DNA of 64,000 nucleotides from positions 434,001 through 498,000 of the forward strand of contig NZ_LMIW01000008.1 of the NCBI RefSeq assembly GCF_001429185.1, in the 5' to 3' direction. Below, in pieces: positions 36 through 63,881 of this stretch. The DNA is from Terrabacter sp. Root85. GTDB lineage: Bacteria > Actinomycetota > Actinomycetes > Actinomycetales > Dermatophilaceae. A model generated the notes under the pieces. That model did not search any database and was not told the DNA's origin. It worked only from the letters and a program-made list of their open reading frames with translations. Position numbers and translations under genes: made by a program. Each line of letters starts with the position of its first letter. Position 1 is the stretch's first letter.

Positions 36-982
36 CCGACCGCTCGGGTGGCCTGCTCGTCGTCGACAAGCCGGCCGGATGGACGAGCCATGACGTCGTC
101 GCGCGCGCCCGTCGTCTCTGTGGCACGCGCCGGGTCGGCCACGCCGGCACGCTCGACCCGATGGCGACCGGCGTCCTCGTGCTCGGCGTCGAGCGCGGCA
201 CGAAGCTGCTGACCTTCCTCGTCGGCTGCGACAAGTCGTATGCCGCCACGATCCGTCTCGGGATGGCCACCCTCACCGACGACGCCGAGGGTGAGACGAC
301 CCAGGCGCTCGGGGTCGACGACGTGCCCGCGCTCGAGGCGGCCCTGCCCGCGGCCGTCGCGGCCCTGACGGGCGACATCCAGCAGGTGCCGAGCTCGGTC
401 AGCGCCATCAAGGTCAAGGGTGTGCGCAGCTACACGCGCGTCCGGCAGGGCGACTCGGTCGACCTGCCGGCCCGGCCGGTCACGGTGAGCCGTTTCGACG
501 TGCTCTCGGTGCGCCCCGGCACCGCGACGGTAGAGGTGGGGCCCCCGATCGACGTCGTCGACGTCGAGGTCGAGGTCGACGTGTCGTCCGGCACCTACGT
601 CCGCGCGCTCGCCCGCGACCTCGGCGAGGCGCTCGGCGTCGGCGGCCACCTGAAGGCGCTCCGGCGTACGCGGGTCGGCCGCTTCGGGCTCGACGCCGCG
701 GTCTCGCTCGACGACCTCACGGCCACGTCGGAGACCGACGGGCCGGACGGCATACCCCTGCTCCCGATCGCCGACGCGGCCCGGGCGCAGCTGCCCGTCC
801 ACGAGGTGACGGCCGAGGAGGCCGTCGCCCTCGGCTACGGCCAGCGCATCCAGAGCGCGGTGGACGGTTCCGACGCGGTGGCCGCCATCGACCCCGACGG
901 GCGTCTCGTCGCCGTGCTCGACGAGACGCGTCCGACCGCCCGGGCCAAGGTGGTCTTCGCCGCGTCCGGGGCGGGGGCCTGA
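32..982 (+). CDS. truB: tRNA pseudouridine(55) synthase TruB
   Basis: Converts U55 of the tRNA T-loop to pseudouridine. The N-terminal catalytic domain has the family motif GTLDPMATG with the expected catalytic aspartate at residue 42, preceded by the conserved opening LLVVDKPAGWTSHD. The region KVKGVRSYTRVRQG (about residues 128-141) and a C-terminal TruB/PUA-like part complete a 316-residue protein of normal length. The ATG overlaps the stop of the preceding gene, implying translational coupling in an rbfA-truB-ribF type cluster. Function is clear from sequence. Confidence 0.97.
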   Translation: MTDRSGGLLVVDKPAGWTSHDVVARARRLCGTRRVGHAGTLDPMATGVLVLGVERGTKLLTFLVGCDKSYAATIRLGMATLTDDAEGETTQALGVDDVPALEAALPAAVAALTGDIQQVPSSVSAIKVKGVRSYTRVRQGDSVDLPARPVTVSRFDVLSVRPGTATVEVGPPIDVVDVEVEVDVSSGTYVRALARDLGEALGVGGHLKALRRTRVGRFGLDAAVSLDDLTATSETDGPDGIPLLPIADAARAQLPVHEVTAEEAVALGYGQRIQSAVDGSDAVAAIDPDGRLVAVLDETRPTARAKVVFAASGAGA

Positions 983-1025
983 GCCTCGTGCCCGAGCCCT
1001 CGGACGTCCGCTCCGACGGGGCCAC

Positions 1026-1031
1026 TACAGT
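1026..1031 (+). promoter_or_regulatory. -10 element of a leaderless-type ribF promoter
   Basis: TACAGT lies 7 nt before the GTG at 1039. This spacing places the transcription start at or near the start codon. It supports the 1039 start over the in-frame GTG at 988. Confidence 0.45.
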
Positions 1032-1038
1032 GGTCGCC

Positions 1039-2010
1039 GTGCAGCGCTGGTACGGACTCGACGACATCCCGGCCGACCTCGGGCCCACCGTCGTCACCCT
1101 CGGCAACTTCGACGGGGTGCACCGCGGGCACCGCGAGGTCCTGACGCGCGTCGTGCGCGAGGCCGCCGACCGCGGGGCCCTTCCCGTGGCCGTCACCTTC
1201 GAGCCGCACCCGATCGCCGTGCTCTACCCCGACCGCGCCCCGGCTGCCGTCATGTCGCTCGAGCAGCGACTGGACGCGCTCGCGTCGGTGGGCGTCGGCG
1301 CGGTGCTCGTCATCGAGTTCACGCGTGACTTCGCCCAGCAGACCCCCGAGGAGTTCGTCCGCGGCACGTTCGTGGACGCCCTCGGTGCCTGCGCCGTCGT
1401 CGTCGGCAAGGACACCCGCTTCGGCGTGCGCAACTCCGGCGACGTCGGCACGCTGCGCGAGCTCGGCGCCGCGCACGGCTTCGAGGTCATCGCCCTCGAC
1501 GACATCGGCGAGGGGGCCGACGAGGGCGCGCGCTGGAGCTCGACGCAGCTGCGCGCCGAGCTGCTCGCCGGCAACGTCGACCACGCCGCCCAGATCATCG
1601 GCCGTCCGCACCGGGTCACCGGCACCGTCGTGCACGGCGACCACAGGGGCCGCGAGCTCGGCTACCCGACGGCCAACCTCTCGCAGGACCACGAGGGCCT
1701 CGTGCCGGCCGACGGGGTGTATGCCGGGTGGCTCGTCCGTCTCGGCCTCGACGAGGGTGCCCCCGACCGCACCCTCCCGGCGGCCGTCTCCGTGGGCACC
1801 AACCCGACGTTCGACGGTCATCAGCGCAGGGTCGAGGCCTACGTCCTCGATCGCACCGACCTCGACCTCTACGGCGAGCGCGTCGCGGTGGAGTTCGTCT
1901 CGCACCTGCGTCCCACCCTGAAGTTCGAGTCGATCGACACCCTCGTCGAGCAGATGGCCCAGGACGTGGTCCGGTGTCGCGAGATCCTCTCGGCGATCGT
2001 CCCGTCGTAG
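1039..2010 (+). CDS. ribF: Bifunctional riboflavin kinase / FAD synthetase RibF
   Basis: Makes FMN and FAD from riboflavin. The N-terminal nucleotidyltransferase domain opens with GNFDGVHRGH (residues 22-31). The C-terminal flavokinase domain contains HGDHRGRELGYPTANL, whose GxPTAN motif binds the substrate. The chosen GTG at 1039 gives 323 residues starting VQRWYGLDD, typical for the family, and has a TACAGT -10 box 7 nt upstream. An in-frame GTG at 988 would add 17 residues with no family resemblance. It follows truB, the common actinobacterial order. Confidence 0.95.
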   Translation: MQRWYGLDDIPADLGPTVVTLGNFDGVHRGHREVLTRVVREAADRGALPVAVTFEPHPIAVLYPDRAPAAVMSLEQRLDALASVGVGAVLVIEFTRDFAQQTPEEFVRGTFVDALGACAVVVGKDTRFGVRNSGDVGTLRELGAAHGFEVIALDDIGEGADEGARWSSTQLRAELLAGNVDHAAQIIGRPHRVTGTVVHGDHRGRELGYPTANLSQDHEGLVPADGVYAGWLVRLGLDEGAPDRTLPAAVSVGTNPTFDGHQRRVEAYVLDRTDLDLYGERVAVEFVSHLRPTLKFESIDTLVEQMAQDVVRCREILSAIVPS

Positions 2011-3206
2011 CCGGGCCGCTCCTGCCGCCGACGCGGCCTTCCGCGGGCGGCCGTCGGGCGGTACGGGGCCCCGCCGGGCCGTCGTGGCTGCGGGTCGACC
2101 TCGGACTGCTCATCGGCGCCCTCGGCCTGTCGGTCGTCGGCGTCGTCCTCGTCTGGTCGGCCACCCGCGCGTCGGTCGGCGGGACCGCGGCGCTCAAGCA
2201 GCTCGTCGCGCTGGGCGTCGGCATCGCGTGCGCCGCCGTGGTGACGCGGCTCGACGTGCGCGTGGTGCGGGCGGTCGCTCCCGTCGTCTACGTCCTTGCC
2301 GTCCTCGGGCTCGCGGCCGTCGTCTCGCCGCTCGGGTCGACCGTCAACGGCTCGCGCTCCTGGATCCGGCTGCCGGGCGGCATGAGCCTGCAGCCGTCGG
2401 AGCTGATGAAGGTGGCCCTGGCGATCGGGCTCGCGATGCTCCTCGCGGAGCGGGCCGAGCGCGGGCTGCGCCAGCGCCACCGGGACGTCGCGCTCGCGTG
2501 GGTCGTGGCCGGCATACCCGTGGTTCTCGTGCTCGCCCAGCCCGACCTCGGCTCTGCGCTCGTGCTCGTCGCCATGGCGGTCGTCATCATCGCGGCGGCC
2601 GGCGCCCCGGCCCTGTGGACGCTCGGCGTCCTCGTGGCCGGCGCGGCGGCCGTGGCTGCTGCCTTCCTGACGCCGGTCCTGTCGGCCTACCAGCGCAACC
2701 GGCTGCGCGCCTTCCTCGATCCCTCGCTCGACCCGCAGGGTATCGGCTACCAGACCCGGCAGGTGCGCATCGCCATCGGCTCGGGCGGGCTCGGCGGCCA
2801 GGGGCTCTTCGAGGGTCGCCAGACCCAGGGCGGGTTCATCCCCTTCCAGGAGACGGACTTCGTCTTCTCCGTCGCGGGGGAGGAGCTCGGCTTCCTCGGC
2901 GCGGCAGGGCTCGTCGTGCTCATCGGGTTCATCGTCGTGCGGTGCGTCGTCGTGGCGCGCCGCGCCGACGCGTTCGGGCGCCTGGTCGCGATCGGTGTCG
3001 CCGTCTGGCTGGGGGTGCAGGCCTTCGAGAACATCGGGATGAACCTCGGGCTCATGCCCGTCACGGGGCTGCCGCTGCCGTTCGTGTCGAGCGGTGGCTC
3101 CTCGCTCATCGCCTCGTGGATCGCCGTCGGCCTCGTCGGCAACGTCGCCGCGGCGTCGCAGCGGCGAGGCGGACGACCCGTCGCGGGTCGCCTCCGGCGG
3201 GGTTGA
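1974..3206 (+). CDS. SEDS-family peptidoglycan glycosyltransferase (RodA/FtsW type)
   Basis: Polytopic SEDS protein that polymerises glycan strands from lipid II together with a class B PBP. About ten hydrophobic segments are visible. Family signatures include GSRSWIRLPGGMSLQPSELMK, GGLGGQGLFEGRQTQGGFIPFQ-like central loop and the C-terminal GLPLPFVSSGGSSL. RodA rather than FtsW is likelier from length and loop sequence, but this is not certain. The start is unclear: the first in-frame GTG before the first membrane segment is at 1974, overlapping ribF by 37 nt and giving 410 residues with a 38-residue cytoplasmic lead. No class B PBP is adjacent; the PBP2-like gene lies at 23.9 kb. Confidence 0.88.
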   Translation: MSRDPLGDRPVVAGPLLPPTRPSAGGRRAVRGPAGPSWLRVDLGLLIGALGLSVVGVVLVWSATRASVGGTAALKQLVALGVGIACAAVVTRLDVRVVRAVAPVVYVLAVLGLAAVVSPLGSTVNGSRSWIRLPGGMSLQPSELMKVALAIGLAMLLAERAERGLRQRHRDVALAWVVAGIPVVLVLAQPDLGSALVLVAMAVVIIAAAGAPALWTLGVLVAGAAAVAAAFLTPVLSAYQRNRLRAFLDPSLDPQGIGYQTRQVRIAIGSGGLGGQGLFEGRQTQGGFIPFQETDFVFSVAGEELGFLGAAGLVVLIGFIVVRCVVVARRADAFGRLVAIGVAVWLGVQAFENIGMNLGLMPVTGLPLPFVSSGGSSLIASWIAVGLVGNVAAASQRRGGRPVAGRLRRG

Positions 3207-3295
3207 GCCCCGCCTCCGGTTACCGAGGGGTCACATTTCGACGTGGACGACGACGGATGCGTGACTGGCACGACGATTGTTGACATCATCCCGGC

Positions 3296-6480: not shown

Positions 6481-8472
<1,992 letters not shown>

Positions 8473-8508
8473 GCCCCCCGGCCGGTCATGGCGGGCGTCC
8501 CCCAGGGG

Positions 8509-8553
8509 GCCGTATGCCGCGTGCCGGGGGAGGGTGGCGGAGCGGCATACGGC
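8509..8553. terminator. Inverted repeat built from two opposed GTATGCC motifs
   Basis: GCCGTATGCCGC (8509-8520) pairs perfectly with GCGGCATACGGC (8542-8553) across a 21-nt loop. It lies 36 nt after the radical SAM stop. The arms are the window-wide repeated motif facing itself. Confidence 0.5.
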
Positions 8554-8691
8554 TGCTCGGGTCCCCTGTTGCCCGGAGCACACGACCCGGCGAGCGCGCG
8601 CTCGTCGGGACGTGCCCGTCCGAAGTGCCTCAGACGGCGACGAAGATCCGCGACGCCTGTGACGACGGCGGCCTGGTCGGCCCCCGGGAAC

Positions 8692-12023: not shown

Positions 12024-13070
12024 TCACCGGAGAGACCGGATCCACGCCCAGAGGACGGCCCCCGAGCGGGCGAGCTGCCGCCGGTCCACGACGGTGGGCA
12101 CGTCGGTGGCCGAGTGGTATGCCGCATACGGCACGCTGCCGAGCCGGACGGCGGGGATGCCGGCCCTCTCGAACGACACGTGGTCGCTCGCCCTGTTGAC
12201 GCACGCCCTGGTCGCGGCGACGGGGACCGCCGCGCGACGGATCGCGTCCGCGAGGGAGGTGTCGGCGCCGCCGACGTGGCACACCGGCACCGCAGCGGCT
12301 CGCACGCCGACCCGGTCGAGCGCGACCATGCCGCGGACCGCACGACGTTCGGACGCGCCCAGTCCGGCGACGAAGTGCCGCGAGCCGAACGCGTACAGCG
12401 TGCCGTTGCCGCCCCGCGCCTCCTCGGCACCGAACGCGACGAACCGCACGGGGAGCGCGCCGGGCTGCTGGAGCGTCATCCGGGCCACCTCGGCCATGAC
12501 CATGAGCCCGGACGCGTTGTCCTCGGCCCCGGGCGACTGCGGCACCGTGTCGAGGTGCGCGCCCACGACGACGTGCGGCTGCGTCGGGTCGAAGCCGGGC
12601 GGGTCGGCGACGACGTCCACCGTCGTGCCGGCGGGGACCCGCACGCCCCACGACACACCGGCGGGCACGGCGACGGGCTGGAGGGTGACGCGGTAGCCGG
12701 CTGCACGCAGCTGCCCCGCGACGTAGGCCGCAGCCCGGTCGCTCGCCGGGCTCGCCGCGTCACGCGGACCGATCCCCGCCAGAGCACGGATGCCGCCGAG
12801 CACCGTGTCGACGTCGAAGGGGTCCGCGCGGGGCGGGGGCACAGGCGAGGCCGAGCGCGAGGGTGAGTCGGAGGGGGAGGTCGACAGAGGCGTCTGGGCG
12901 GCGTCCTCCGTCGACGTCGAGGGCAGCGAGGAGGTCGGCGCGGACACGGGGGACGCGCCCTCGGACCCGGGAGCCGGGGCTCCGCCGGTGCACGCGGTCG
13001 CAGCCGCGAGGAGGGCGACGACGGCCAGCGCGGTGCGCGACCGGCGCCGGCGACGGGTCGAGGCGGCCAT
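12024..13070 (-). CDS. M28-family zinc metallopeptidase lipoprotein
   Basis: A 348-residue secreted aminopeptidase-like protein. An Arg-rich N-region and hydrophobic stretch lead to a lipobox ending at C27 (AATAC), then a Ser/Thr/Pro linker to about residue 90. The peptidase domain shows the M28 metal ligands in order: VGAHLDTV (His), GAEDNASG (Asp), AFGAEEARGG (catalytic and ligand Glu) and AYHSATD (C-terminal His). It probably cleaves N-terminal residues from peptides outside the membrane. Upstream starts in the same frame would run into the FAD oxidoreductase and destroy the signal peptide, so ATG 13070 is preferred. Confidence 0.88.
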   Translation of the reverse strand: MAASTRRRRRSRTALAVVALLAAATACTGGAPAPGSEGASPVSAPTSSLPSTSTEDAAQTPLSTSPSDSPSRSASPVPPPRADPFDVDTVLGGIRALAGIGPRDAASPASDRAAAYVAGQLRAAGYRVTLQPVAVPAGVSWGVRVPAGTTVDVVADPPGFDPTQPHVVVGAHLDTVPQSPGAEDNASGLMVMAEVARMTLQQPGALPVRFVAFGAEEARGGNGTLYAFGSRHFVAGLGASERRAVRGMVALDRVGVRAAAVPVCHVGGADTSLADAIRRAAVPVAATRACVNRASDHVSFERAGIPAVRLGSVPYAAYHSATDVPTVVDRRQLARSGAVLWAWIRSLR

Positions 13071-13177: not shown

Positions 13178-14548
13178 TCAGGCGCCGGGAACCGCGAAGA
13201 CCTTGCCCGGGTTCATGATGCCGAGCGGGTCGAAGACGGCCTTGAGGCGACGCTGCCGGTCGAGCTCGGCGTCCCCGAGCTCGAGGCCGAGCCACGGCAC
13301 CTTGACCGACCCGATGCCGTGCTCGCCGGTGATGGTGCCGTCGAGCGACAGCCCGAGCCGGATGAGGTCGTCGAAGGCCTCCCACGCGCGCGCCAGGCTG
13401 TCGGGGTCGTCGTGGGCGAAGACGATCGAGGGGTGCAGGTTGCCGTCGCCGCCGTGGCCGCTCACCGGGATGAGCACCGACCGGCGCTCGGCGATGGCCT
13501 CGATGCCGCGCACGAACTCGGCGAGCCGGCCGATCGGCACGCACATGTCCTCGGCGAGGCGACCGCCCATCGCCTCGAACGCGGTGCTCATGACGCGGCG
13601 CCCCGCGAGCAGCGCCTCCGACTCCTGCGCGTCGTCGGCCACCGCGACGTCGGTCGCCCCCGCGGACTCCAGCAGGGCGGCATACCTCGCGACGTCGTCG
13701 GCGACGTGACCCGGGCGGTCGGACTGCACGAGCAGCACGGCGGCGCAGTCGTCGGGGAACCCGAAGTCGCCGAACGCCTGGATGGCCCGGACGCTCGTGC
13801 GGTCGATGATCTCGAGCAGGCACGGGCGGTGCGGGTCGCGGCGCAGCGCGACGATGCCGGCGACGGCGGCGTCGAGCGAGTCGAAGACGGCCAGGGCCGT
13901 CAGGGCCGGGTCGGGCGCCGGCTCGAGCCGCACGACGGCCTCGGTGACGACGCCGAGCGTGCCCTCGGACCCGACGAAGAGGCCGGTCAGGTCGTAGCCG
14001 GCGACGCCCTTGGCGGTGCGGTGACCCGTGCGCATGACCTCGCCGCCCGGGAGCACGACCTGCAGGGCCTTGACCCAGTCGGACGTGACGCCGTACTTGA
14101 CGCAGCACAGGCCGCCGGCGTTCGTCGCGATGTTGCCGCCGATGGTGCACGTCTCCCACGACGCGGGGTCGGGCCCGTAGAAGAGGCCTGCCGACGCCGC
14201 CGCACGCTTGAGGTCCGCGTTGACGACGCCGGGGCCGACGACGGCATACCCCTCGAGCTCGTTCACCTCGTGGATGGTGTCGAGCGCCTCGACGTTGAGC
14301 ACGATGCAGTCCTCGGTGGCGACGGCACCGCCCGACCGGGACGTGCGCGCTCCCTGCGGGACGACCGCGGTGCCGGTGGCCTGGGCGTGCTCGAGCACGG
14401 CCACGACATCGCTGACGTCGCGCGCCCGGATGACGGCGAAGTCGTCGGGTGGGGGAGCGAGGGCGACGGTCGCGTCGAGCGCGTACGACCGGCGCACGTC
14501 CGCGTCGGTGACCTCACGATGGGCGATCTGCTCGGGCAGGCTGGGCAT
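13178..14548 (-). CDS. FAD-binding oxidoreductase, GlcD/D-lactate dehydrogenase type
   Basis: 456 residues. The PCMH-type FAD domain has VVPQGARTSRSGG (about 62-74), GNIATNAGG and GLFVGSEGTLGVVTEAV. The C-terminal FAD-oxidase domain has SGHGGDGNLHPSI and TGEHGIGSVK, as in the glycolate oxidase GlcD and D-lactate dehydrogenase group. The substrate, a 2-hydroxyacid, is not determined; there is no Fe-S domain and no GlcE/GlcF neighbour. ATG 14548 follows a TAGCCT -10 box by 6 nt, so the mRNA is probably leaderless. Confidence 0.88.
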   Translation of the reverse strand: MPSLPEQIAHREVTDADVRRSYALDATVALAPPPDDFAVIRARDVSDVVAVLEHAQATGTAVVPQGARTSRSGGAVATEDCIVLNVEALDTIHEVNELEGYAVVGPGVVNADLKRAAASAGLFYGPDPASWETCTIGGNIATNAGGLCCVKYGVTSDWVKALQVVLPGGEVMRTGHRTAKGVAGYDLTGLFVGSEGTLGVVTEAVVRLEPAPDPALTALAVFDSLDAAVAGIVALRRDPHRPCLLEIIDRTSVRAIQAFGDFGFPDDCAAVLLVQSDRPGHVADDVARYAALLESAGATDVAVADDAQESEALLAGRRVMSTAFEAMGGRLAEDMCVPIGRLAEFVRGIEAIAERRSVLIPVSGHGGDGNLHPSIVFAHDDPDSLARAWEAFDDLIRLGLSLDGTITGEHGIGSVKVPWLGLELGDAELDRQRRLKAVFDPLGIMNPGKVFAVPGA

Positions 14549-14570: not shown

Positions 14571-14774
14571 CACAGGCGTCGGAGCCGTGTATCAGCGGCG
14601 AGCCTCCGGAAGAACAGGGTCACCCTCCGCGGCGGGTGACCCCCACTAGAACCGGACGGGTGGGCCCGTCACAGCCTTCGACAAGAGCGGCCGTATGCCG
14701 TCTGCCCGAGCGGGCGGGCACGTGCGGCAAGCGGGGTGGTACCGCGGCAGCCTCCGGCAGGAGACGTCGTCCTC
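14571..14774 (+). promoter_or_regulatory. T-box riboswitch (isoleucine, translational type) for ileS
   Basis: The T-box core TGGTACCGCGG at 14737-14747, preceded by GGGG, is diagnostic and pairs with the acceptor end of uncharged tRNA. The upstream Stem I has ATC at 14591-14593 (GTGTATCAGC), an isoleucine specifier, and is short, as in actinobacterial ileS leaders. A hairpin with arms GGGTCACC and GGTGACCC (14618-14641 area) lies between. There is no terminator before the gene. Instead CTCC (14752-14755) can pair with GGAG (14760-14763), which fits Shine-Dalgarno sequestration. Uncharged tRNA-Ile should therefore raise IleS translation. Confidence 0.9.
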
Positions 14775-27247: not shown

Positions 27248-27269
27248 GCGGCATACGTGCGCTGGCGCG

Positions 27270-30839: not shown

Positions 30840-30862
30840 GCATCGTCCGGACAGGCGTGCGT

Positions 30863-31654: not shown

Positions 31655-31770
31655 ACGCCCGCCGGACGGGTGGGTCGTGGGGCGCGGCCGGGGCGGACGG
31701 CATACGACCGTGGCCGCAGGGCACGCGACCCGGGCTGCACGGCATACGCCCGGTGCCAGCCGGGGATGCA

Positions 31771-36687: not shown

Positions 36688-36801
36688 GCGACCACTTCCT
36701 CGATCCCTTCCAGTGTGCGCCGCACAGCCGACTCCCAGCACGGCTTCGTGACGCACGAGTCCGTATGCCGTGTGCCGCGTCGCGCGCCTCCGTGGGCTCG
36801 T

Positions 36802-47316: not shown

Positions 47317-47343
47317 CACGGCATACGCGACCACTCGAAAGAA

Positions 47344-50184: not shown

Positions 50185-51264
50185 GTGACGGTGCAGGAGG
50201 CCGACCGGGGGCACCTCGACAGCGACGACGGCCACGACGGGCCCTCCGGTCGTCCGGGGGAGCCCGCCGAGTCGTCGACGCGGGAGCCGGCCGGGCGTCG
50301 TCCCCGCCGGCGCTGGGTCGACGTCGTCATCGGCGTCGTCCTGCTCGGGCTCGTCGCCGTCGGGGCGCTGCGCTGGTACGACTCGACGGCATACGTCGTC
50401 GTCGTGCTCCAGACGGCTGGGCCCTTCGTCGTCATCGGCCTGGGCCTGCTCGCCGTGGCGACGCTCGTGCTACGGCGGTGGTGGATGCTCGTCCCCGTCG
50501 TCGTCGCGCTCGTCGTGGCGGCGACGGTCGCGGCGCCGGCCTTCCGGGCCACCTCCTCGCCGAAGGCCGACCGCGACCTCACGGTCATGTCGGCCAACGT
50601 CTGGATCGGGTCGGCCAACGCCGGCCAGCTCATGGACGCCGTGCGCTTTCACTCCGTCGACGTCCTCGTGCTCACCGAGGCGACGCCCGCGATCCTGCGG
50701 CGGCTCGACGCCGAAGGGGCGGCCGACTACTTCAGCCAGCGGGAGGGCGTCGCCCGGGCCAGCACCTACACGGGGACGATGGTCCTGTCGCGCTACCCGC
50801 TCTCGGTGCGCAGCCTCGGCACCGACCCGGCGCTCGAGGGCACCCGAAGCGTCCAGCCCGAGGTCGACGTGACCGTGCCCAACGGCACGGTGCGTCTCAA
50901 GGTCGCCCATCCCACGGCGCCCTTGCGCGGTGACACCGTCGAGTGGCGCGCGGGCCTGCGGGCGCTCCAGTCGTGGAAGCAGCGTCTCGACGGCGACGAG
51001 CTCCTCGTCATGGCCGGCGACTTCAACGCCGGCTTCGGCCACCCCGGCTTCCGCGACCTCGCCGCGGGCCTCGACGACGCGCAGCGCACCGACGGACAGG
51101 GGTGGGTGCGCACCTGGCCCTTCGCGGGCAACCGGCTTCCGGCCTTCGTCCAGCTCGACCACCTGCTGAGCCGCGGCCTCACGGTCGTCGAGGCCGGGCA
51201 GGTGGCTCTCAATCGCGCCGACCACGCCGCGGTCTGGGCGAGCTACGCCCTGCCGGCGCGCTGA
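50185..51264 (+). CDS. Endonuclease/exonuclease/phosphatase-family membrane protein
   Basis: 359 residues. A charged lead (1-43) is followed by three hydrophobic helices (about 45-125), then a DNase I-like EEP domain with MSANVWIGSAN, VLVLTEATP, MAGDFNAGFGHPGF and the final NRADHAAVWASY, which contains the catalytic Asp-His. The domain lies outside the membrane. Substrates in this family range from nucleic acids to phospholipids, so none is assigned. GTG 50185 begins one nt after the rnj stop, implying co-translation. Confidence 0.85.
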   Translation: MTVQEADRGHLDSDDGHDGPSGRPGEPAESSTREPAGRRPRRRWVDVVIGVVLLGLVAVGALRWYDSTAYVVVVLQTAGPFVVIGLGLLAVATLVLRRWWMLVPVVVALVVAATVAAPAFRATSSPKADRDLTVMSANVWIGSANAGQLMDAVRFHSVDVLVLTEATPAILRRLDAEGAADYFSQREGVARASTYTGTMVLSRYPLSVRSLGTDPALEGTRSVQPEVDVTVPNGTVRLKVAHPTAPLRGDTVEWRAGLRALQSWKQRLDGDELLVMAGDFNAGFGHPGFRDLAAGLDDAQRTDGQGWVRTWPFAGNRLPAFVQLDHLLSRGLTVVEAGQVALNRADHAAVWASYALPAR

Positions 51265-51342: not shown

Positions 51343-52740
51343 TCACCATGGTCGCTCGACCTCGACGTCGCGCGGGTCGGTGCCCTCGAGCGCCCATCCG
51401 GTCTCCGTGAGCGACCACTCCGCGTCGGTGCCCTGCTCGACGAGCCGCGCGACGGCGGCGACGAGCCGCTCGACGCCCTCGAGCGTGCTGCCGAGGCCGA
51501 TGCTGGCGCGGACCGCGGTGGCGGAACGCTCGCCCCACGGGTCCTCGAGGAGCTCGTCGACGAGCAGGTGGGCGCAGAACTTGCCGTCCCGCACGCCGAT
51601 GCCGTGCTCGACGGAGAGGACCTGCGACACGAGCGAGGAGTCCCAGCCGTCGATGGTGAAGGCGACGACGCCGACCCGGTCGCTGTCGTCACCGAAGATC
51701 GACAGGACCTCGACGCCCGCGACGTCGTCGAGTCCGGCGCGGAGCCGCTCGAGGAGGCGGGTCTCGTGCTCCTCGATGGCGTCGCGGTGCCGGCTGATCG
51801 TCGAGCAGGCCGCGGCGAGGGCGATGGCTCCGATGACGTTGGGGCTGCCGCCCTCGTGGCGCGCCGGCCCGGTCGCCCATGTGGTGCCGTCCTCGGTCAC
51901 CGAGCGCGTCGCGCCGCCACCGAGCAGGTAGGGGTTGCCGGCGTCGAGCCAGTCGGAGCGCCCGGCGAGGACGCCCGCGCCGTAGGGGGCGTACGTCTTG
52001 TGCCCCGAGAACGCGACGTAGTCGGCGTCCCACGCGGCGAGGTCGATGGTGCGGTGCGCCGAGAGCTGGGCCGCGTCGACGGCGATCCGGGCGCCGTGCT
52101 CGTGCGCCAGGGTGGCGAAGCGCTCGACCGGCCAGACCTCTCCCGTCACGTTCGAGGCGGCCGCGACGACGACGAGGCGGTGGCGCGACGGGTGGTCGGT
52201 CAGCGCCTCCTCGAGCAGGGCGTGCGCGTCCTCGACGGTCTGCGGGACGGGGAGGCGCACGGTGCGGAAGCGGCCCCAGGGCAGCAGGGTCGAGTGGTGC
52301 TCGGTGCCGAAGACGAAGACCGTCGTGCGGCTAGGCAGCGCCTTGCTCAGCAGGGCCCACGAGTCGGTCGTCGTCCGGGTGAAGATGACGGAGTCGCCCT
52401 CACGCGCGCCGACGAAGGCGGCGACCTCGGCGCGGGCCTGCTCGTACCACGCGCTCGTCAGCCGCGAGGCGAACCCGGCGCCGCGGTGCACGGAGGAATA
52501 GGTCTCGAGGGCGCGGTCGACGGCCGCCTGGACCGTCTCGAGCGCCGGCGTCGAGGCCGCGTGGTCGAGGTTGGCGTATGCCGTGTCGCCGTGGAGCGTG
52601 GGCACGCGCAGTCCCGCGCCGACGACGGTGGGCAGGGTGCGCGCCTCGGGCACGACGTGCAGGGCGCGGGTGCGCACGACGGGTGCGGGGGAGCCGCCAC
52701 AGAGGGAGGCCGCTGGGTGCGTCGAGGGAAGGACCGACAT
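51343..52740 (-). CDS. Class V aminotransferase-fold enzyme (cysteine desulfurase-like)
   Basis: 465 residues. A PLP enzyme with NLDHAASTPA, GTEHHSTLLPW, the pyridoxal-lysine motif FSGHKTYAPYG (K248) and GIGVRDGKFCAHLL. It resembles SufS/CsdA-type desulfurases, but the lead of about 55 residues and the sequence around the possible reactive cysteine are unlike typical SufS. No suf genes are adjacent. Its leader is a SAM-IV riboswitch, so a role in sulfur amino acid metabolism is a reasonable inference. ATG 52740 has AGGAG seven nt upstream. Confidence 0.85.
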   Translation of the reverse strand: MSVLPSTHPAASLCGGSPAPVVRTRALHVVPEARTLPTVVGAGLRVPTLHGDTAYANLDHAASTPALETVQAAVDRALETYSSVHRGAGFASRLTSAWYEQARAEVAAFVGAREGDSVIFTRTTTDSWALLSKALPSRTTVFVFGTEHHSTLLPWGRFRTVRLPVPQTVEDAHALLEEALTDHPSRHRLVVVAAASNVTGEVWPVERFATLAHEHGARIAVDAAQLSAHRTIDLAAWDADYVAFSGHKTYAPYGAGVLAGRSDWLDAGNPYLLGGGATRSVTEDGTTWATGPARHEGGSPNVIGAIALAAACSTISRHRDAIEEHETRLLERLRAGLDDVAGVEVLSIFGDDSDRVGVVAFTIDGWDSSLVSQVLSVEHGIGVRDGKFCAHLLVDELLEDPWGERSATAVRASIGLGSTLEGVERLVAAVARLVEQGTDAEWSLTETGWALEGTDPRDVEVERPW

Positions 52741-52916: not shown

Positions 52917-53091
52917 AAGGGGTCGGTCACCGGCTGTCCACCGGTCGGTCCCCGGGTGTCGCGATCTGAGACGCCGACCCCGCCGGGGACCTCGCGGGAC
53001 GGTGGCGGGCGCGCCCACGGCATACGGCAGCCGCGTCCGACTGGTCAGCCCTGTTGCGCGTGTGACGCGTGAGTTCAGCGGTGCGTTGACG
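52917..53091. other. Divergent intergenic region between riboswitch and ftsK
   Basis: 175 nt with no supported gene. It holds one GGCATAC motif (53019-53025). With the riboswitch it completes a 363-nt gap between the aminotransferase and ftsK. Confidence 0.5.
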
Positions 53092-53103: not shown

Positions 53104-56037
53104 ATGGCGTCACGTCCGTCCACCAGCCAGCGCTCGAGCTCCGCCGCGGCCACCCGCGCCAAGGGGTCCGCGGGCAGCGCCTCGTCACGCCCTCCCGCAG
53201 CCCGGGGCGGCCGGCCCGCGCAGCGCAAGCCCGCGGCCCGCAAGCCCGCCGCCAAGGCCGCGTCCAAGACGCGGGGCGGAGGCCTCCCCTTCCCGTTCGG
53301 CGCGATGCGCAACACCTGGATGGGCGTCTCGCACATGGCCGGGGGAGCGGTGCGCCGCGTCGGGCACAGCGCCGCCGACCTCGAGCCGGAGCACCGCCGC
53401 GACGGCATCGGCTTCGCGCTCATCGCGCTCGCCGTGGTCGTCGCCGCGCGTGAGTGGTGGGGCGTCTCCGGCGCCTTCGGCCAGGTGGTGCACGCCGTCT
53501 TCGCCGGCACCTTCGGCCGCGTCGCCTACGCCGTCCCGCTCGTGCTGCTCGCCCTCGGCCTGCGCATGCTTCGAGCTCCCCAGGACGACGCGGCGACCAA
53601 CCGCGTCGTCGTCGGCACCATCGCCCTGACCTTCGCCGCGTGCGGTCTGTCGCACCTTGCCGACGGCATCCCCAACCCGCCCGACGGCGCCGACGGCATG
53701 CGTGCCGCCGGCGGCATCCTCGGCTTCCTCGCCTCGAGCCCGCTCGCGGCGGCCGTCTCGACCTACGGGGCGCTCGTCCTGCTCGTCCTGCTCGGTCTCT
53801 TCGGCCTGCTCGTCATCACGGCGACGCCGGTCAACATGATCCCGACCCGCCTGCGCCAGCTGCGCGCCCTCGTCATCGACCGCGACCACGTCGACGAGCA
53901 GCCCGACGAGGCGCTCGACGCCCCTGCCGCAGCGGTGAAGCGCGCGCGCCGCAAGGCCGTCGACCTCGCCGACCGCGACGGCGACGAGGCGTTCCGCCAG
54001 GCCGCGCAGAAGGCCCTCGAGGACGAGGCGACCACGCAGCTGCGACCCGGCGAGAAGCGCCCGACGCCTCCCGGGCTGCTGGCTCCCCGTCCCGGCGGCG
54101 AGAAGGGCGGGGAGAAGGTCATCGACGCCACCGACCCGAAGACCCTCGTGGCGCCCGACACGAGCAAGGTCGGACCCAAGGCCGAGCTCATCCCCCCGCC
54201 CATGTCCGACCTGCCGGCTCGCGTCGAGCAGCTCAGTCTCGGCGGCGACATCACCTACCAGCTGCCCGACCACGCGATGCTGACGCCGGGGCCGCCGCAC
54301 AAGACGCGCAGCGAGACCAACGACCGCGTCGTCGAGTCGCTGACCAACGTCTTCGACCAGTTCGACATCGACGCCGCCGTCACGGGGTTCACCCGCGGCC
54401 CGACGGTCACGCGCTACGAGGTCGAGCTCGGCTCGGGCACCAAGGTCGAGCGCGTCACCGCGCTCTCCAAGAACATCGCGTATGCCGTCGCCTCGGCCGA
54501 CGTGCGCATCCTCAGCCCCATCCCGGGCAAGTCCGCCATCGGCATCGAGATCCCGAACCTCGACCGCGAGAACGTGTCCCTCGGCGACGTGCTGCGCAGC
54601 AACACGGCCCGCACCAACGAGCACCCGATGGTCATGGGTGTCGGCAAGGACGTCGAGGGCGCCTACGTCATCGCCAACCTCGCGAAGATGCCGCACCTGC
54701 TCGTCGCGGGCGCCACCGGATCGGGCAAGTCGAGCTTCGTCAACTCGATGATCACCTCGATCCTCATGCGCTCGACGCCCGAGGAGGTCCGGATGATCCT
54801 CGTCGACCCGAAGCGCGTCGAGCTGACGGCCTACGAAGGCATCCCGCACCTCATCACGCCGATCATCACCAACCCCAAGAAGGCCGCCGAGGCCCTCGCG
54901 TGGGTCGTCAAGGAGATGGACCAGCGCTACGACGACCTCGCGGCGTTCGGCTTCAAGCACGTCGACGACTTCAACAAGGCGGTCCGCGCCGGCAAGGTCA
55001 AGCCGCTGCCGGGCTCGGAGCGCCAGATCACGACCTACCCGTACCTCCTCGTCGTCGTCGACGAGCTCGCCGACCTCATGATGGTCGCCCCGCGCGACGT
55101 CGAGGAGTCGGTGGTGCGCATCACCCAGCTCGCCCGTGCCGCCGGCATCCACCTCGTCCTCGCGACGCAGCGTCCGTCGGTCGACGTCGTCACGGGCCTC
55201 ATCAAGGCCAACGTCCCCTCGCGCATGGCGTTCGCGACGTCCTCGCTCGCGGACTCCCGCGTCGTGCTCGACCAGCCCGGCGCCGAGAAGCTCATCGGCC
55301 AGGGTGACGCGCTCTTCCTGCCGATGGGCGCGAGCAAGCCGATGCGTGTCCAGGGCGCGTGGGTCAACGAGTCCGAGATCCACGAGGTCGTCAAGTTCGT
55401 CACGACCCAGCTCAAGCCCAACTACGTCGAGAACGTCACCGTCGCGGCGCCCAAGAAGCAGATCGACGACGACATCGGCGACGACCTCGACGTGCTGCTC
55501 CAGGCCACCGAGCTCGTCGTCACGACCCAGTTCGGCTCGACGTCGATGCTCCAGCGCAAGCTGCGCGTCGGCTTCGCCAAGGCCGGACGGCTCATGGACC
55601 TGCTCGAGTCGCGCGGCGTCGTCGGCCCGAGCGAGGGCTCCAAGGCCCGCGACGTGCTCGTGCGCCCGGACGACCTCGAGCAGACGCTCGCGCTGCTGCG
55701 CGGCGAGGACGTGCCGCACCCCAACGAGCCCGTCGACGCCGATGACCTCGCCGAGATCATCGAGCCCGCCGAGCCGTATGCCGCCCCGCCCGTCGACGTG
55801 GAGCCTGCCGAAGCGTCGGCCGGCTACGCCGAGGAGCCCGACGAGGAGGTCGCGCCGCAGCGCACGGCCTCGCTCGTCGCCGAGCGCGGTGAGCAGCGTG
55901 CCCACGAGGACGAGACCACCGCGGTCCCGATGGCGCGGTGGACGCCCGGCGACATGACGCGCACGGTCGACGAGCACGACGAGGAGTCCGAGGACGCCTG
56001 GAACCTCACCGACCGCGGCGGCCGAGAGCGCTACTGA
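53104..56037 (+). CDS. ftsK: DNA translocase FtsK
   Basis: Moves chromosome ends through the division septum. 977 residues: an Ala/Lys/Arg-rich lead, about four membrane helices (residues 100-245), a linker, the alpha/beta motor with Walker A AGATGSGKSSF (about 535) and Walker B LLVVVDELADLM (about 650), and a gamma winged helix (TSMLQRKLRVGFAKAGRLMDLLE). A further acidic tail of about 100 residues follows gamma. Start is set by TACGGT six nt before ATG 53104; upstream in-frame sequence lacks coding character. Confidence 0.95.
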   Translation: MASRPSTSQRSSSAAATRAKGSAGSASSRPPAARGGRPAQRKPAARKPAAKAASKTRGGGLPFPFGAMRNTWMGVSHMAGGAVRRVGHSAADLEPEHRRDGIGFALIALAVVVAAREWWGVSGAFGQVVHAVFAGTFGRVAYAVPLVLLALGLRMLRAPQDDAATNRVVVGTIALTFAACGLSHLADGIPNPPDGADGMRAAGGILGFLASSPLAAAVSTYGALVLLVLLGLFGLLVITATPVNMIPTRLRQLRALVIDRDHVDEQPDEALDAPAAAVKRARRKAVDLADRDGDEAFRQAAQKALEDEATTQLRPGEKRPTPPGLLAPRPGGEKGGEKVIDATDPKTLVAPDTSKVGPKAELIPPPMSDLPARVEQLSLGGDITYQLPDHAMLTPGPPHKTRSETNDRVVESLTNVFDQFDIDAAVTGFTRGPTVTRYEVELGSGTKVERVTALSKNIAYAVASADVRILSPIPGKSAIGIEIPNLDRENVSLGDVLRSNTARTNEHPMVMGVGKDVEGAYVIANLAKMPHLLVAGATGSGKSSFVNSMITSILMRSTPEEVRMILVDPKRVELTAYEGIPHLITPIITNPKKAAEALAWVVKEMDQRYDDLAAFGFKHVDDFNKAVRAGKVKPLPGSERQITTYPYLLVVVDELADLMMVAPRDVEESVVRITQLARAAGIHLVLATQRPSVDVVTGLIKANVPSRMAFATSSLADSRVVLDQPGAEKLIGQGDALFLPMGASKPMRVQGAWVNESEIHEVVKFVTTQLKPNYVENVTVAAPKKQIDDDIGDDLDVLLQATELVVTTQFGSTSMLQRKLRVGFAKAGRLMDLLESRGVVGPSEGSKARDVLVRPDDLEQTLALLRGEDVPHPNEPVDADDLAEIIEPAEPYAAPPVDVEPAEASAGYAEEPDEEVAPQRTASLVAERGEQRAHEDETTAVPMARWTPGDMTRTVDEHDEESEDAWNLTDRGGRERY

Positions 56038-59482: not shown

Positions 59483-60064
59483 TCACCCGGCGCTCGGCGC
59501 CGAGAGACGCGCAAGGGCGAGGTTGAGCTCGAGGACGTCGACCCGCGGCTGGCCCAGGAAGCCGGCGATGCGGTCCTGTGAATGCTCCTCGACGAGGGCC
59601 CGGACCCGGGTGACGTCGAGACCGCGGGCTGCGGCGACGCGCTCGACCTGGGCGACGGCATACGCCGGCGTGATGTGGGGGTCCAGCCCGCTGCCCGATG
59701 CGGTGAGCGCGTCGGCGGGAGCGGTCGAAGGGTCGAGACCCGCTGCCCCCACGCGCTTGGCGACCTCGGCCTCGAGGTCAGCACCGGGCCCGAGGTTGGT
59801 TCCACCGCTCGTGTCGCCGGCGTAGTCGCTGGCCGAGGGGCGACCGTGGAACCACTCGTCGCCCTGCCACTGCTGGCCGATGAGGCTCGAGCCGACGACC
59901 CTGGTTCCGGACGAGACGAGCGAGCCGGCCGCCTGGTCGCGTCCGGCAACCTGGCCGACGCCCCACACTGCGGCGGGGTAGAGCACGCCGAACAGCACGG
60001 TGAGGACGAGCATGGCCCGAAGGCCCGCGAGGGACTGCTTGATGACGTTGTCCACGTGTCTCAC
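59483..60064 (-). CDS. kdpC: Potassium-transporting ATPase subunit KdpC
   Basis: 193 residues: one N-terminal membrane helix ([21 protein letters not shown]) and a soluble domain with [25 protein letters not shown] and [14 protein letters not shown], all KdpC signatures. It assists KdpB catalysis. GTG 60064 overlaps the kdpB stop (GTGA) and has GGAA upstream; GTG 60055 would give a more usual start (VDNVIKQ). Confidence 0.95.
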
Positions 60065-62238
60065 ATCATTCCGGGGAGGTGGCTCACGACGAGGTCGATC
60101 AGCTTGATGCCGATGAACGGGGCGATGACGCCGCCGACTCCGTAGATGAGGATGTTGCGCCGCAGCAGGGCAGTGCTTCCGGAGGGCCGGTAGCGAACCC
60201 CCCTCAGCGACAAGGGGATCAGCGCGACGATGACGAGGGCGTTGAAGATCACGGCCGAGAGCATTGCCGACTTCGGGGTCGAGAGGCCCATGATGTTGAG
60301 GGCCTCGAGGCCCGGGAAGAGCACGACGAACATCGCCGGGATGATCGCGAAGTACTTCGCGATGTCGTTGGCGATCGAGAAGGTCGTCAACGCCCCGCGG
60401 GTGATGAGCAGCTGCTTGCCGATGGAGACGATGTCGATGAGCTTCGTCGGGTCGGAGTCGAGGTCGACCATGTTGGCCGCCTCCTTGGCCGCCGAGGTTC
60501 CGGTGTTCATCGCCACGCCGACGTCCGACTGGGCCAGAGCGGGGGCGTCGTTCGTGCCGTCGCCGGTCATCGCCACGAGACGGCCGCCCTGCTGCTCCTT
60601 CCGGATCAGGGCCATCTTGTCCTCGGGTGTGGCCTCGGCGAGGAAGTCGTCGACCCCGGCCTCCTCCGCGATGGACTTCGCCGTGAGCGGGTTGTCGCCC
60701 GTGATCATGACGGTGCGGATGCCCATCGCGCGCAGCTGGGCGAAGCGCTCCTTCATGCCGGGCTTGACGACGTCCTTGAGGTGGATGACGCCGAGCACCC
60801 GGGCCGGCCCGCCCGGCTGCTTCGACGCGACGACCAGAGGGGTCCCTCCGGAGCTGGCGATCCCGGCGACCTCGGTGAGCACCCCGGACGGAACGCCACC
60901 TCCGTGGTCGGAAGCCCAGCGGCACACGGCATCGGACGCGCCCTTGCGCACGGCCGTGCCGTCGGGCAGGTCGATCCCCGACATGCGGGTCTGCGCGGTG
61001 AACTCCACGAACGTGGCACCCTCGCGCCGGACTCCGTCGAAGCGCGTACGCGTCTCGTCGGCGAGGCCCCGCGCGGACAGCTCGACGATCGAGCGCCCCT
61101 CGGGCGTCTCGTCGGCCAGTGAGGAGAGGTATGCCGCCTCGGTGACCTCCACGTCCGGAAGGCCGGGGGCCGCGAGCAGCTCGGTTGCACGGCGGTTGCC
61201 GAACGTGATGGTGCCGGTCTTGTCGAGCAGCAGCGTCGACACGTCGCCCGCTGCCTCGACGGCACGGCCCGACATCGCGAGGACGTTGTGCTGCACGAGC
61301 CGGTCCATGCCGGCGATGCCGATCGCGGAGAGCAGCGCCCCGATCGTCGTGGGGATGAGGCAGACGAGCAGGGCCACGAGCACGACGACAGACTGCTCCT
61401 GGCCGGAGTAGACGGCGAGCGGCTGGATCGCCATGACGGCGAGGACGAAGATGATCGTCAGCGTGGTGAGCAGGATGGTCAGCGCGATCTCGTTGGGCGT
61501 CTTCTGCCGTGCCGCGCCCTCGACGAGGGCGATCATCCGGTCGATGAAGGTCTCACCGGGCTTGGTCGTGATGCGCACCGTGATGCCGTCGGAGAGCACT
61601 GTCGTGCCGCCCGTGACGGCGCACCGGTCACCACCGGACTCACGGATGACGGGAGCGGACTCGCCGGTGATCGCCGACTCGTCCACGGTGGCCATGCCCT
61701 CGACGACGTCCCCGTCACCGGGGATGACCTGGCCGGGACGCACGACGACGACGTCGCCGATCGTGAGGTCGGAGGCAGCCACGGTCTCGACGGAGCCGTC
61801 GGCGCTCCGGCGCTGCGCCGTCGTCGTGGTCCGGGTGGCGCGCAGCGTGGCCGCCTGCGCCTTGCCGCGGCCCTCGGCGACGGCCTCGGCCATGTTGGCG
61901 AAGAGGACGGTGGCCCACAGCCACAGGGTGATGCTCCACGCGAACCACGAGGGGTCGACGATGGCGACGACGGTGGTCAGGAGCGAGCCGATCCACACGA
62001 CGAAGACGACGGGACTGTGCCACACGTGACGCGGGTCGAGCTTGCGCACGGCCTCGGGGAAGGTCGCGACCAGCTGGCGCGCGAGCGTGCCGAGCGACAG
62101 CGGGGCCTTCCCCGCCCTGATGAGAGGCATCTCGCTGCCGGAGCCGCCGCGCCGGTGGGCCGAGCCGCCGTGGGCGCCGGGGCCGCGCGGGTCGGTGGTG
62201 TCGGGGGACGACGGGGTCGTCGTCGGGGACGGGGTCAT
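60061..62238 (-). CDS. kdpB: Potassium-transporting ATPase ATP-binding subunit KdpB
   Basis: P-type ATPase that powers potassium import. 725 residues. Phosphorylated D339 in [13 protein letters not shown], the actuator motif [13 protein letters not shown], the hinge [21 protein letters not shown] and about seven membrane helices. A low-complexity lead of about 36 residues precedes the usual start. ATG 62238 overlaps the kdpA stop. Confidence 0.96.
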
Positions 62239-63881
62239 GACAGTGCCTCCGCGAGGGGACCGAGGGCCAGGGCAGGGAAGAACGTGAGTCCGGTGACGAT
62301 GATCGCCACCCCGACGAAGAGGCCCGCGAACGTGGGTGTGTGGGTGGGAAGGGTGCCAGCGTTGGCTGGCCGACGTCGTTGCGCCACCAGGGAACCGGCA
62401 AGGGCCAGCACGAGGACGATCGGCACGAAGCGGCCGAGGAACATGCACAGGGCGAGGGTGAGGTTCGTGTACGGCGTGTCGGCCGAGAAGCCGGCGAACG
62501 CGCTGCCGTTGTTGTTGGCGGCCGAGGCGTAGGCGTACATCACCTCAGTGAGCCCGTGCGGGCCGCTCGCGAGCATCTGCGACGACACCAGGGGCGCCAC
62601 CATGCCGATCCCCGTGAAGACGAGCACGAGGGCCGGCATGACGAGCAGGGCCAGCGCGACCAGCGTGATCTCGCGCCGACCGATCTGCTTGCCGAGCAGC
62701 TCGGGCGTGCGCCCGACCATGAGCCCGGAGATGAACACGGTCAGCATCGCGAGGAGCAAGGCGCCGTAGAGTCCCGACCCGACACCGCCGGGGGAGACCT
62801 CGCCGAGGAGCATGTGGACGAGCGCACCGCCTCCACCGAGGGGGCTGTAGCTCTCGTGCATCGAGTTGACGGCGCCGGTCGAGGTGCCGGTGGTGCTCGC
62901 CGCGAAGAGGGCGGACGGCCAGACGCCGAAACGCACCTCCTTGCCCTCGAGTCCGCCGAGCGGGCCGCTCGCCGCGCTCACCTCGGCCCACGTCACGGCC
63001 GCGACCATGAGGCCCCAGAGCGTGGCCATGAAGCCGAGCACTGCCCAGCCCTGCCGCCGGTCGCCGACGAGGATGCCGTAGGTCCGCGGCAGGGAGAACG
63101 GGATGACGAGCAGCAGGAAGATCTCGACGAGGTTCGTGATGGCGTTCGGGTTCTCGAAGGGGTGGGCGGAGTTGGCGTTGAAGTAGCCGCCGCCGTTCGT
63201 GCCGAGCTCCTTGATCGCCTCCTGCGACGCGACGAGGCCGCCCTGGACGACCTGCGACCCGCCAGAGAGCGTCGTGACCTCCGTCGGCGCCGTGAGGTTC
63301 TGGATGACGCCACCGAGCAGCAGGACGACGGCCCCGACGACGGCGAGGGGCAGCAGGACACGCAGCGACCCACGCACGAGGTCGACCCAGAAGTTGCCGA
63401 TCTCGGCCCCGCTCGAACGGGCGAGGCCGCGCACGAGCGCCACGGCCACCGCCAGCCCCACCGCCGGCGAGACGAAGTTCTGGACGGTCAGCCCGAGCGT
63501 CTGGACGAGCGGCGACGTGCCCGACTCCCCGGCATACGACTGCCAGTTGGTGTTCGTCACGAACGAGACGGCCGTGTTGAGAGCGGTGTCGAGGTTCATC
63601 GACGCACCGCGGGCGAACGGCAGGACGCCCTGCAGGGCGATGAGCGCGAAGAGCAGGACGACGCCGACGACGGAGAAGCCGAGGACGGCGACGGCATACG
63701 TGCTCCAGCGCTGCTCGGACGCGGGGTCGACGCGGCAAAGGCGGTAGACGAGGCGCTCCACGCGCCAGTCCCGGGTGTCGGTGAAGACGCGTGCCATCCA
63801 CGACCCGAGTGGCACGTGGACGGCGGCGAGCGCGGCGACGAGGACGGCGATCGTGAGCAGCCCGCTGACGGTGTCGCTCAT
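62235..63881 (-). CDS. kdpA: Potassium-transporting ATPase channel subunit KdpA
   Basis: Potassium-selective channel-like subunit. 548 residues, about ten membrane helices. Selectivity-filter regions include [30 protein letters not shown] and [15 protein letters not shown], and the fourth near [15 protein letters not shown]. The ATG shares one base with the kdpF stop (TGATG). Confidence 0.96.

Follow-up and report, generated by a model that had tools for sequence, protein, structure and literature searches.

The window analysed here is a stretch of 64,000 nucleotides forming part of contig 8 of the Terrabacter sp. Root85 genome (4.87 Mb in 15 contigs; hereafter G000, the other genomes, genera and families compared being designated by G, g and f numbers). 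It is an ordinary segment of core chromosome, according to Pfam scans (40 of 52 gene calls), with truB, ribF, a class I tRNA synthetase gene, a Mur-type ligase gene, mreB, mreC, a transpeptidase gene, pnp, dapB, paa genes, thyA, genes for dihydrofolate reductase and RNase J, dapA, ftsK and kdp; no tRNA genes were found in it with ARAGORN. On the basis of leucyl-tRNA synthetase (LeuRS), the closest named relatives of this genome belong to Terrabacter (98% identity to Terrabacter sp. Ter38, 96% to Root181 and 94% to T. tumescens). Spread through the window are copies of a short word, GTATGCC, or GGCATAC on the opposite strand, which a preliminary description had singled out as a repeated motif reaching into coding sequence. 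This observation is confirmed, and is stronger than was stated at the time: the word is at least eight bases long, conserved, specific to the family Dermatophilaceae, forms dialects and overrides codon usage. No description of it was found among the open-access papers listed in literature searches.

A word of at least eight bases overriding codon usage

The preliminary description had counted 41 copies in the window (19 as GTATGCC and 22 as GGCATAC), and every one of these coordinates is exact; by our own gene calls, 30 of the copies lie in coding sequence and 11 between genes. Ranking against a maximal-order Markov model was useless because sub-words of the motif are also enriched, and synonymous-codon shuffles were used instead. 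In the window, a shuffle keeping amino acids, codon usage and codon-boundary context, combined with first-order resampling of intergenic DNA, yielded 7.54 copies (standard deviation 2.42, maximum 16 in 200 runs), that is, about 8, where it had been considered that a codon-aware null might predict about 40. The coding sequence of the window and of 400 kb of contig 1, 416 kb in total, contains 153 copies, versus 15.7 ± 2.8 expected with a plain synonymous shuffle and 28.5 ± 3.8 with a boundary-preserving one (30 shuffles each), the latter being inflated because the contexts of motif-bearing codons are retained. The excess, which might also have proved to be missing elsewhere in the genome, is genome-wide, with 2414 copies (1228 and 1186 by strand) versus 378 (184 and 194) for the reversed word.

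As an explanation, codon usage and composition on their own have next to no probability. The raw count does rank only about ninth (tied) among the 630 7-mers of equal composition in the window, a comparison that had been proposed as a check, and it is against the codon-aware expectation that the excess appears. The nulls for the window and for the 416 kb argue against this explanation, as do relatives of similar G+C content without the word (G235, 72.9%; G361, 72.0%), and chance and codon bias are refuted by the codon-aware nulls.

The recognised unit is longer than seven bases, and is at least GTATGCCG, often in the extended form CGTATGCCGT. All 41 occurrences of TATGCC in the window are preceded by G, and the next base, in motif orientation, is G in 38 of the 41 copies, in agreement with the earlier “nearly all”; over 464 kb, G occupies this position in 93% of the coding copies (n=153) and 97% of the intergenic ones (n=73). 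The choice of rare codons at the motif, also claimed earlier, is borne out for TAT, GCA and ATA, all of which are raised in motif context. Tyrosine is encoded by TAT in 84 of 112 cases in the context xxG-TAY-GCC-G, in 8 of 42 if GCC is followed by a base other than G, and in 53 of 1835 if both the preceding base and the next codon are at odds with the motif. Alanine is encoded by GCA in 38 of 85 cases between CG and TAC (versus 2-6% in the five remaining contexts), and isoleucine by ATA in 12 of 91 cases in CGGC-ATH-C (0-1% in the other five). Counting both strands, 41 of the 64 TAT triplets of the window lie inside the motif. The statement that every ATA codon noticed was in the motif holds for the called genes of the window (four of four) but for only 12 of 19 over the 464 kb, and a fifth ATA reported at 2511 does coincide with a motif copy, although the gene caller found no gene there.

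Placement, pairing and conservation of the copies

The balanced orientation described earlier was found in the genome-wide strand counts given above, over 400 kb (92/99) and, approximately, in each 100-kb block (n=4); the forward share was 0.476-0.524 in every family genome with more than 800 copies. Chi and the FtsK-orienting polar sequences (KOPS) are likewise short words present above chance levels, but they have an orientation bias, which the Terrabacter word lacks, and a role of this kind was rejected for this reason. Copies are spaced more evenly than expected under a null keeping the split between coding and intergenic DNA (coefficient of variation 0.784 versus 0.975 ± 0.072, P 0.001). 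The largest gap in 400 kb of contig 1, 10.3 kb long, lies over a cluster that we take, from the starts of its proteins, to encode ribosomal proteins, as codon constraint would predict.

The 232 copies in the 464 kb comprise 153 coding, 73 intergenic and 6 partial ones. Intergenic copies are frequent, as had been claimed, with a density about four times that of coding copies (1.92 versus 0.52 per kb in the window, 1.46 versus 0.34 per kb in contig 1). This density is 3.16 per kb between convergent genes (24 copies in 7.6 kb), 1.62 per kb between tandem genes and 0.65 per kb between divergent genes (11 in 16.8 kb). The pair previously described as a hairpin at 8509-8553 is predicted to fold as such, at -35.0 kcal/mol for the stretch 8506-8556. 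Nine inverted (+ -) pairs of GTATGCCG within 45 bp were found in contig 1, seven of them with a start-to-start distance of 21-22 bp and predicted folds of -22.8 to -31.6 kcal/mol. Such terminator-like hairpin pairs, as judged from predicted folds, are present in Terrabacter and were not seen in samples of G257 and G326.

A transcription-terminator or RNA element from which the word leaked into genes would account for the hairpin pairs and for the excess at 3' ends. However, 153 of the 232 copies lie inside genes, 99 in sense and 54 in antisense orientation with respect to transcription, and of the 107 intergenic copies examined in three genomes, only 29 are within 60 bp of another, making this explanation highly improbable. 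A pure terminator role fails, because most copies are in genes and in both orientations.

The 78 unpaired intergenic copies of three Terrabacter genomes have a characteristic flank (first G of the word at position 0), with C at -1 (80%), T at +8 (62%), G at +11 (65%), C at +13 (66%), C at +14 (57%) and T at +18 (39%); the chi-squared values at these positions were 18.7 to 149.6 (3 degrees of freedom), uncorrected for the 34 flank positions examined. At intergenic copies, the word is followed by a weaker element, GSCC, at a distance of about one helical turn.

Conservation was assessed by aligning 80-100 kb around comEC from four Terrabacter genomes (86-94% identity), the expected number of kept sites being calculated from the average conservation per base. 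As regards conservation in related genomes, proposed earlier as a check for synonymous sites, the aligned sites of G000 were kept beyond neutral expectation, remaining unchanged in 19 of 22 cases in G388 (6.8 expected), 21 of 27 in G349 (9.3 expected) and 29 of 32 in G371 (20.0 expected). TAT codons were kept in 109 of 134 cases inside the motif and 30 of 117 outside it, in pairwise and therefore non-independent comparisons among the four genomes. In comparisons with other genera, the T-sites of G000 were kept in 5 of 7 cases in both Intrasporangium oryzae and Humibacillus xanthopallidus, but in only 2 of 7 cases in I. chromatireducens and, for a Lapillicoccus metagenome-assembled genome (MAG), 2 of 5, all of these having the word, and in 1 of 9 in I. 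flavum and 1 of 7 in a Humibacillus MAG, in which it is missing. With 0 to 18 sites per comparison, these figures for the conservation of coding sites across genera are suggestive only.

These alignments bear on the possibility of a mutation or repair bias, such as C to T inside GTACGCCG, making the word without any function. T to C at the fourth base was the commonest single kind of difference (24 of 93 differences at aligned sites), and GTACGCCG is below the reversed-word control in several of the motif-richest genomes (91 versus 205 in G329, 74 versus 152 in G353), as if it had been converted. However, GTACGGCG is likewise low in these genomes (84 versus 381 and 64 versus 254, respectively), GTACGCCG is above the control in G000 itself (574 versus 194), and TAT is conserved three times better in the motif than outside it. 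The 34 single-base differences, again pairwise and non-independent, were of nine kinds at six positions, with only five leading to GTACGCCG, which argues against a single hypermutable step, although such a step may contribute. A one-step mutational origin from GTACGCCG is therefore disfavoured, and we consider a mutation or repair bias very unlikely as the whole explanation.

The copies in the window are listed in Table 1. One gene of the window without copies, at 44844-45818 (-), encodes an AbiEi-type antitoxin/regulator domain (PF13338, E 2.1e-6) and has a G+C content at third codon positions of 0.85, below that of its neighbours; it is possibly a recent arrival in the genome.

Table 1. Motif copies and the paired hairpin in the window, with the basis of each assignment
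Feature	Position	Strand	Basis
Hairpin	8506..8556		inverted pair 8512(+)/8544(-), between convergent genes; fold -35.0 kcal/mol
Motif, coding TCG TAT GCC	238..244	+	exact match + gene calls
Motif, coding GGC ATA CCC	749..755	-	exact match + gene calls
Motif, coding	1719..1725	+	exact match + gene calls
Motif, outside called genes	2511..2517	-	exact match + gene calls
Motif, coding	6738..6744	+	exact match + gene calls
Motif, intergenic	8512..8518	+	exact match
Motif, intergenic	8544..8550	-	exact match
Motif, coding GCG GCA TAC	12117..12123	+	exact match + gene calls
Motif, coding	13679..13685	-	exact match + gene calls
Motif, coding	14243..14249	-	exact match + gene calls
Motif, intergenic	14693..14699	+	exact match
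Motif, coding	20785..20791	-	exact match + gene calls
Motif, coding, in mreC	23203..23209	+	exact match + Pfam
Motif, coding	23406..23412	-	exact match + gene calls
Motif, coding, transpeptidase	25097..25103	+	exact match + Pfam
Motif, coding, transpeptidase	25598..25604	-	exact match + Pfam
Motif, coding, transpeptidase	25775..25781	+	exact match + Pfam
Motif, intergenic	27250..27256	-	exact match
Motif, intergenic	30861..30867	+	exact match
Motif, intergenic	31699..31705	-	exact match
Motif, intergenic	31741..31747	-	exact match
Motif, coding	35899..35905	-	exact match + gene calls
Motif, coding	36277..36283	-	exact match + gene calls
Motif, intergenic	36763..36769	+	exact match
Motif, coding GGC ATA CCC, dapB	37399..37405	-	exact match + Pfam
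Motif, coding GGC ATA CCC	39339..39345	+	exact match + gene calls
Motif, coding	40536..40542	-	exact match + gene calls
Motif, coding	43324..43330	+	exact match + gene calls
Motif, coding GGC ATA CGC	44033..44039	-	exact match + gene calls
Motif, coding, dihydrofolate reductase	47169..47175	+	exact match + Pfam
Motif, intergenic, directly after gene end	47320..47326	-	exact match
Motif, coding, RNase J, next base not G	49712..49718	+	exact match + Pfam
Motif, coding	50388..50394	-	exact match + gene calls
Motif, coding	52576..52582	+	exact match + gene calls
Motif, intergenic	53019..53025	-	exact match
Motif, coding, ftsK	54480..54486	+	exact match + Pfam
Motif, coding, ftsK	55776..55782	+	exact match + Pfam
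Motif, coding, kdpC	59657..59663	-	exact match + Pfam
Motif, coding, P-type ATPase	61129..61135	+	exact match + Pfam
Motif, coding, kdpA	63531..63537	-	exact match + Pfam
Motif, coding, kdpA	63693..63699	-	exact match + Pfam

Family range, dialects and word replacement

In an order-wide sample of 297 genomes, GTATGCC was well above the reversed word in the window's own family, with a maximum of 2643 versus 124 in G257; outside the family, the highest ratio, read by eye among genomes with at least 100 copies, was 178 versus 62 (G229). The family sample consisted of 119 genomes from 53 genera, some of them incomplete, and with cut-offs of our own choosing, GTATGCCG was present at 221 or more copies per Mb in 61 genomes (30 genera), at 41-144 in 15 and at 37 or fewer in 43. 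At named loci of 12-23 kb (20 of 80 loci counted), the word was frequent in Terrabacter, I. oryzae, I. chromatireducens, H. xanthopallidus, the Lapillicoccus MAG and Knoellia remsis, and rare (0-3 GTATGCC) in I. flavum, the Humibacillus MAG, Austwickia, Sanguibacter, Cellulomonas, Actinomyces, Aeromicrobium, Amycolatopsis and Brevibacterium.

Scans of k-mers against codon-aware nulls in samples of 80-100 kb revealed clade-specific dialects within the family. The dialect word is GGGTATGCC in G257 (37 GGTATGCC versus 3.6 expected), GTACGGCG in G351 (65 versus 16.6), GTACGCCG in G326 (67 versus 15.6) and GTACG(C/T/G)CG in G383 and G314, and G136 has a related word, CGTACGYC. Position by position, the dialect words share the core GTA.G.C. 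No 8-mer had a z value above 7.2 in G361, G327, G235 and G366, whereas the leading words of G000, G349, G257, G351 and G326 had values of 11.9 to 21.0. The C-words, GTACGCCG and GTACGGCG, were confirmed by whole-genome counts: those of GTACGCCG reached 3903, 2111 and 4185 in the genomes of g125 and 2618, 2366 and 785 in those of g132, and GTACGGCG occurs 3117 times in G351. Genera may be split: within g114, GTATGCCG occurs 3681 times in G373, 1062 times in G315 and 19 times in G351, and within g96, the C-word occurs 2529 and 1125 times in G383 and G338, versus 347 and 345 times in G362 and G297. In another family, f5, high GTACGCCG ratios were obtained for G004, G023, G040 and G056, and 100 kb of G023, the only one of the four sampled in this way, showed different enriched words.

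Several other words were noted in these samples. The C-dialect word of G351 sometimes forms an overlapping palindrome, CGCCGTACGGCG (9 in 140 kb), unlike the spaced pairs of Terrabacter. In G315, GTATGGAG is strongly enriched beside GTATGCCG (11 versus 0.4 expected in 100 kb) and is perhaps a second or emerging word. G366 has a modest excess of ACGCGTCC (31 versus 12.8). The words CGGGGGAG and CTCCCCCG are present at three to four times the codon-aware null in samples with or without the motif (29 versus 8.3 in G361, 28 versus 8.8 in G351, 21 versus 5.1 in G366, 35 versus 9.8 in G136 and 23 versus 6.2 in I. flavum).

The result complicating the story most is that for I. flavum (G318), the LeuRS of which is about as near to that of the window's genome (86%) as is that of I. 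oryzae (87%), where the word is present. Only three GTATGCCG were found in 160 kb of I. flavum, which instead carries the palindromic GACGCGTC, without the GTA.G.C core: 65 copies in 160 kb (40.6 per 100 kb, versus 7.5 per 100 kb in G000) and 55 in 100 kb, versus 10.9 expected. ACGCGTC is denser between convergent genes in this genome (11 in 2.0 kb). This may reflect a switch of receptor, or the whole phenomenon may be like that of the cyanobacterial highly iterated palindrome, HIP1; the replacement resembles those of HIP1 in cyanobacteria, where other words take its place in a few relatives, some replacements coinciding with new methyltransferases (PMC4390886).

An iterated word of the HIP1 type, kept for the intracellular processing or marking of DNA (methylation, mismatch repair or replication) and not for uptake, would be consistent with the thousands of copies of a genome-wide octamer, the override of codon usage, the replacement word of I. 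flavum and the cyanobacterial coincidence with methyltransferases. However, GTATGCCG differs from its reverse complement, such a role would leave both the inverted pairs and the enrichment beyond gene ends unexplained, and none of the four methyltransferase families searched is universal. PF01555 was matched in 51 of the 119 family genomes, with no match in G000 or G371; PF07669, PF02384 and PF00145, counted in Terrabacter only, were matched in four, four and five of nine genomes, respectively. G371, which has 2069 copies of the word, has no match to any of the four. There is therefore no methyltransferase family common to all Terrabacter genomes among these four, other families not having been searched. 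The methylation target put forward as an option in the preliminary description is disfavoured on these grounds, and a restriction-modification site, for which a methyltransferase would be expected wherever the word is common, was rejected given the lack of matches to these four families in G371. We regard a HIP1-like role as unlikely, if still worthy of consideration.

A binding site of a nucleoid protein, as also suggested earlier, or of a protein organising the chromosome, with selection for even spacing and no relation to transformation, would fit the even spacing, the presence on both strands, the family-wide dialects and the extended flank of unpaired intergenic copies. An essential organising site would nevertheless be hard to change, at about one site per 2 kb, and gain, loss or switching is seen inside g114; the strand skew expected of FtsK/KOPS or Chi is missing, and such a role, which we consider improbable, would not lead one to expect paired hairpins where convergent genes end.

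A putative self-DNA uptake signal

We consider the chances about evenly balanced that GTATGCCG is a self-DNA uptake signal, read by a protein most likely located on the uptake machinery. Uptake is preferred because the copy number, the presence on both strands, the even spacing, the paired hairpins, the dialects and the losses within the family resemble the published portrait of the DNA uptake sequence (DUS). Additional support is provided by ComEA and ComEC, both encoded in the genome, and by a Tad cluster of the type needed for transformation in Micrococcus luteus, an actinobacterium in which this process depends on comEC and tad genes (PMC4322843). We infer a reader protein, a link to uptake and a drive of the following kind. 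The word would act as a self-recognition tag bound by a sequence-reading protein; tagged fragments would be preferentially taken up and recombined, such that copies would spread and be restored over generations at synonymous and intergenic sites. Inverted pairs would be reused as terminator-like hairpins, and with drift of the reader protein the word of the genome would drift along, giving rise to dialects.

The preliminary description had likened the word to uptake signals or HIP1-type motifs; the former likeness is upheld by the copies, dialects, inverted pairs and even spacing, whereas that to HIP1 is partial only, the motif not being palindromic. The hallmarks of uptake sequences given in PMC3630211 and PMC12616744 include dialects, inverted pairs and a short core that is fixed. 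Like the DUS of Neisseriaceae, the Terrabacter word has thousands of copies, a length close to their 8-12 nucleotides, coding and intergenic locations, inverted terminator-like hairpin pairs and clade dialects around an invariant short core, with some family members wordless. It differs in being unrelated in sequence, in a high-G+C Gram-positive host with pilus genes of the Flp/Tad type, in that no ComP-like receptor was found, and in the wholly different, palindromic word of I. flavum. The uptake signal sequence (USS) of Pasteurellaceae has a flank about one helical turn from its core. The intergenic copies of Terrabacter similarly combine a core with an informative flank at this distance, but their flank is G+C-rich and found mainly at intergenic copies. 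Even spacing is a further feature in common, described for USS in PMC1939737.

Several observations weigh against an uptake signal. ComEC and TadE were each matched in 115 of the 119 family genomes, including motif-free ones, and are not discriminating; ComEC had no match in four incomplete assemblies (G319, G322, G323 and G363), three of which are strongly motif-bearing (G319, G322 and G323, 58, 81 and 95% complete, respectively). Motif-bearing and motif-free genomes could not be told apart by their Tad gene content (20 stretches, of which 19 had called genes), and no receptor candidate was found among the Tad-locus gene content and the minor pilins of 11 loci. Terrabacter and G351 show a clear concentration of copies in intergenic DNA, one that is weak or lacking in samples of G257 (0.33 intergenic versus 0.37 coding copies per kb), G326 (0.90 versus 0.65), G383 (0.68 versus 0.64) and G315 (0.45 versus 0.25). 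In I. flavum, the com and tad genes are apparently intact, yet the word has been lost and GACGCGTC is carried. Finally, no description of transformation or competence in Dermatophilaceae was found among the open-access papers listed in literature searches.

The presence of ComEC or TadE was also tried as the factor separating motif-bearing genomes, and was rejected because both are present in motif-free genomes; TadE had no match in G301, G348, G364 and G369, none of which is strongly motif-bearing. The Tad minor pilins diverge quickly, with no pattern tracking the dialects in the 11 loci. Next to prfB, the tad cluster of both Terrabacter and I. flavum includes, behind the TadF/G-like gene, two small additional genes of about 155 and 175 amino acids, for which no equivalent was found at the remaining tad loci of the comparison.

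According to PMC12616744, sequence-specific DNA uptake is known in only two proteobacterial families, Neisseriaceae and Pasteurellaceae. Tentatively, and at slightly less than even chances, the Terrabacter word would represent a third, independently evolved self-DNA uptake code, and the first in Gram-positives, in which a Tad/Com-type apparatus would read CGTATGCCG, with at least three related dialects and an outright switch in I. flavum. If so, DNA self-recognition would extend to Gram-positives, with the word present in 30 of the 53 sampled genera of the family; this would bear on which of these bacteria exchange genes and would provide a natural series for the study of receptor-word coevolution. 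Close relatives having, lacking or having switched the word constitute material for finding the reader protein. Whatever the function, the shift in TAT use from 3% to 75% with context is a striking DNA-level constraint on codons.

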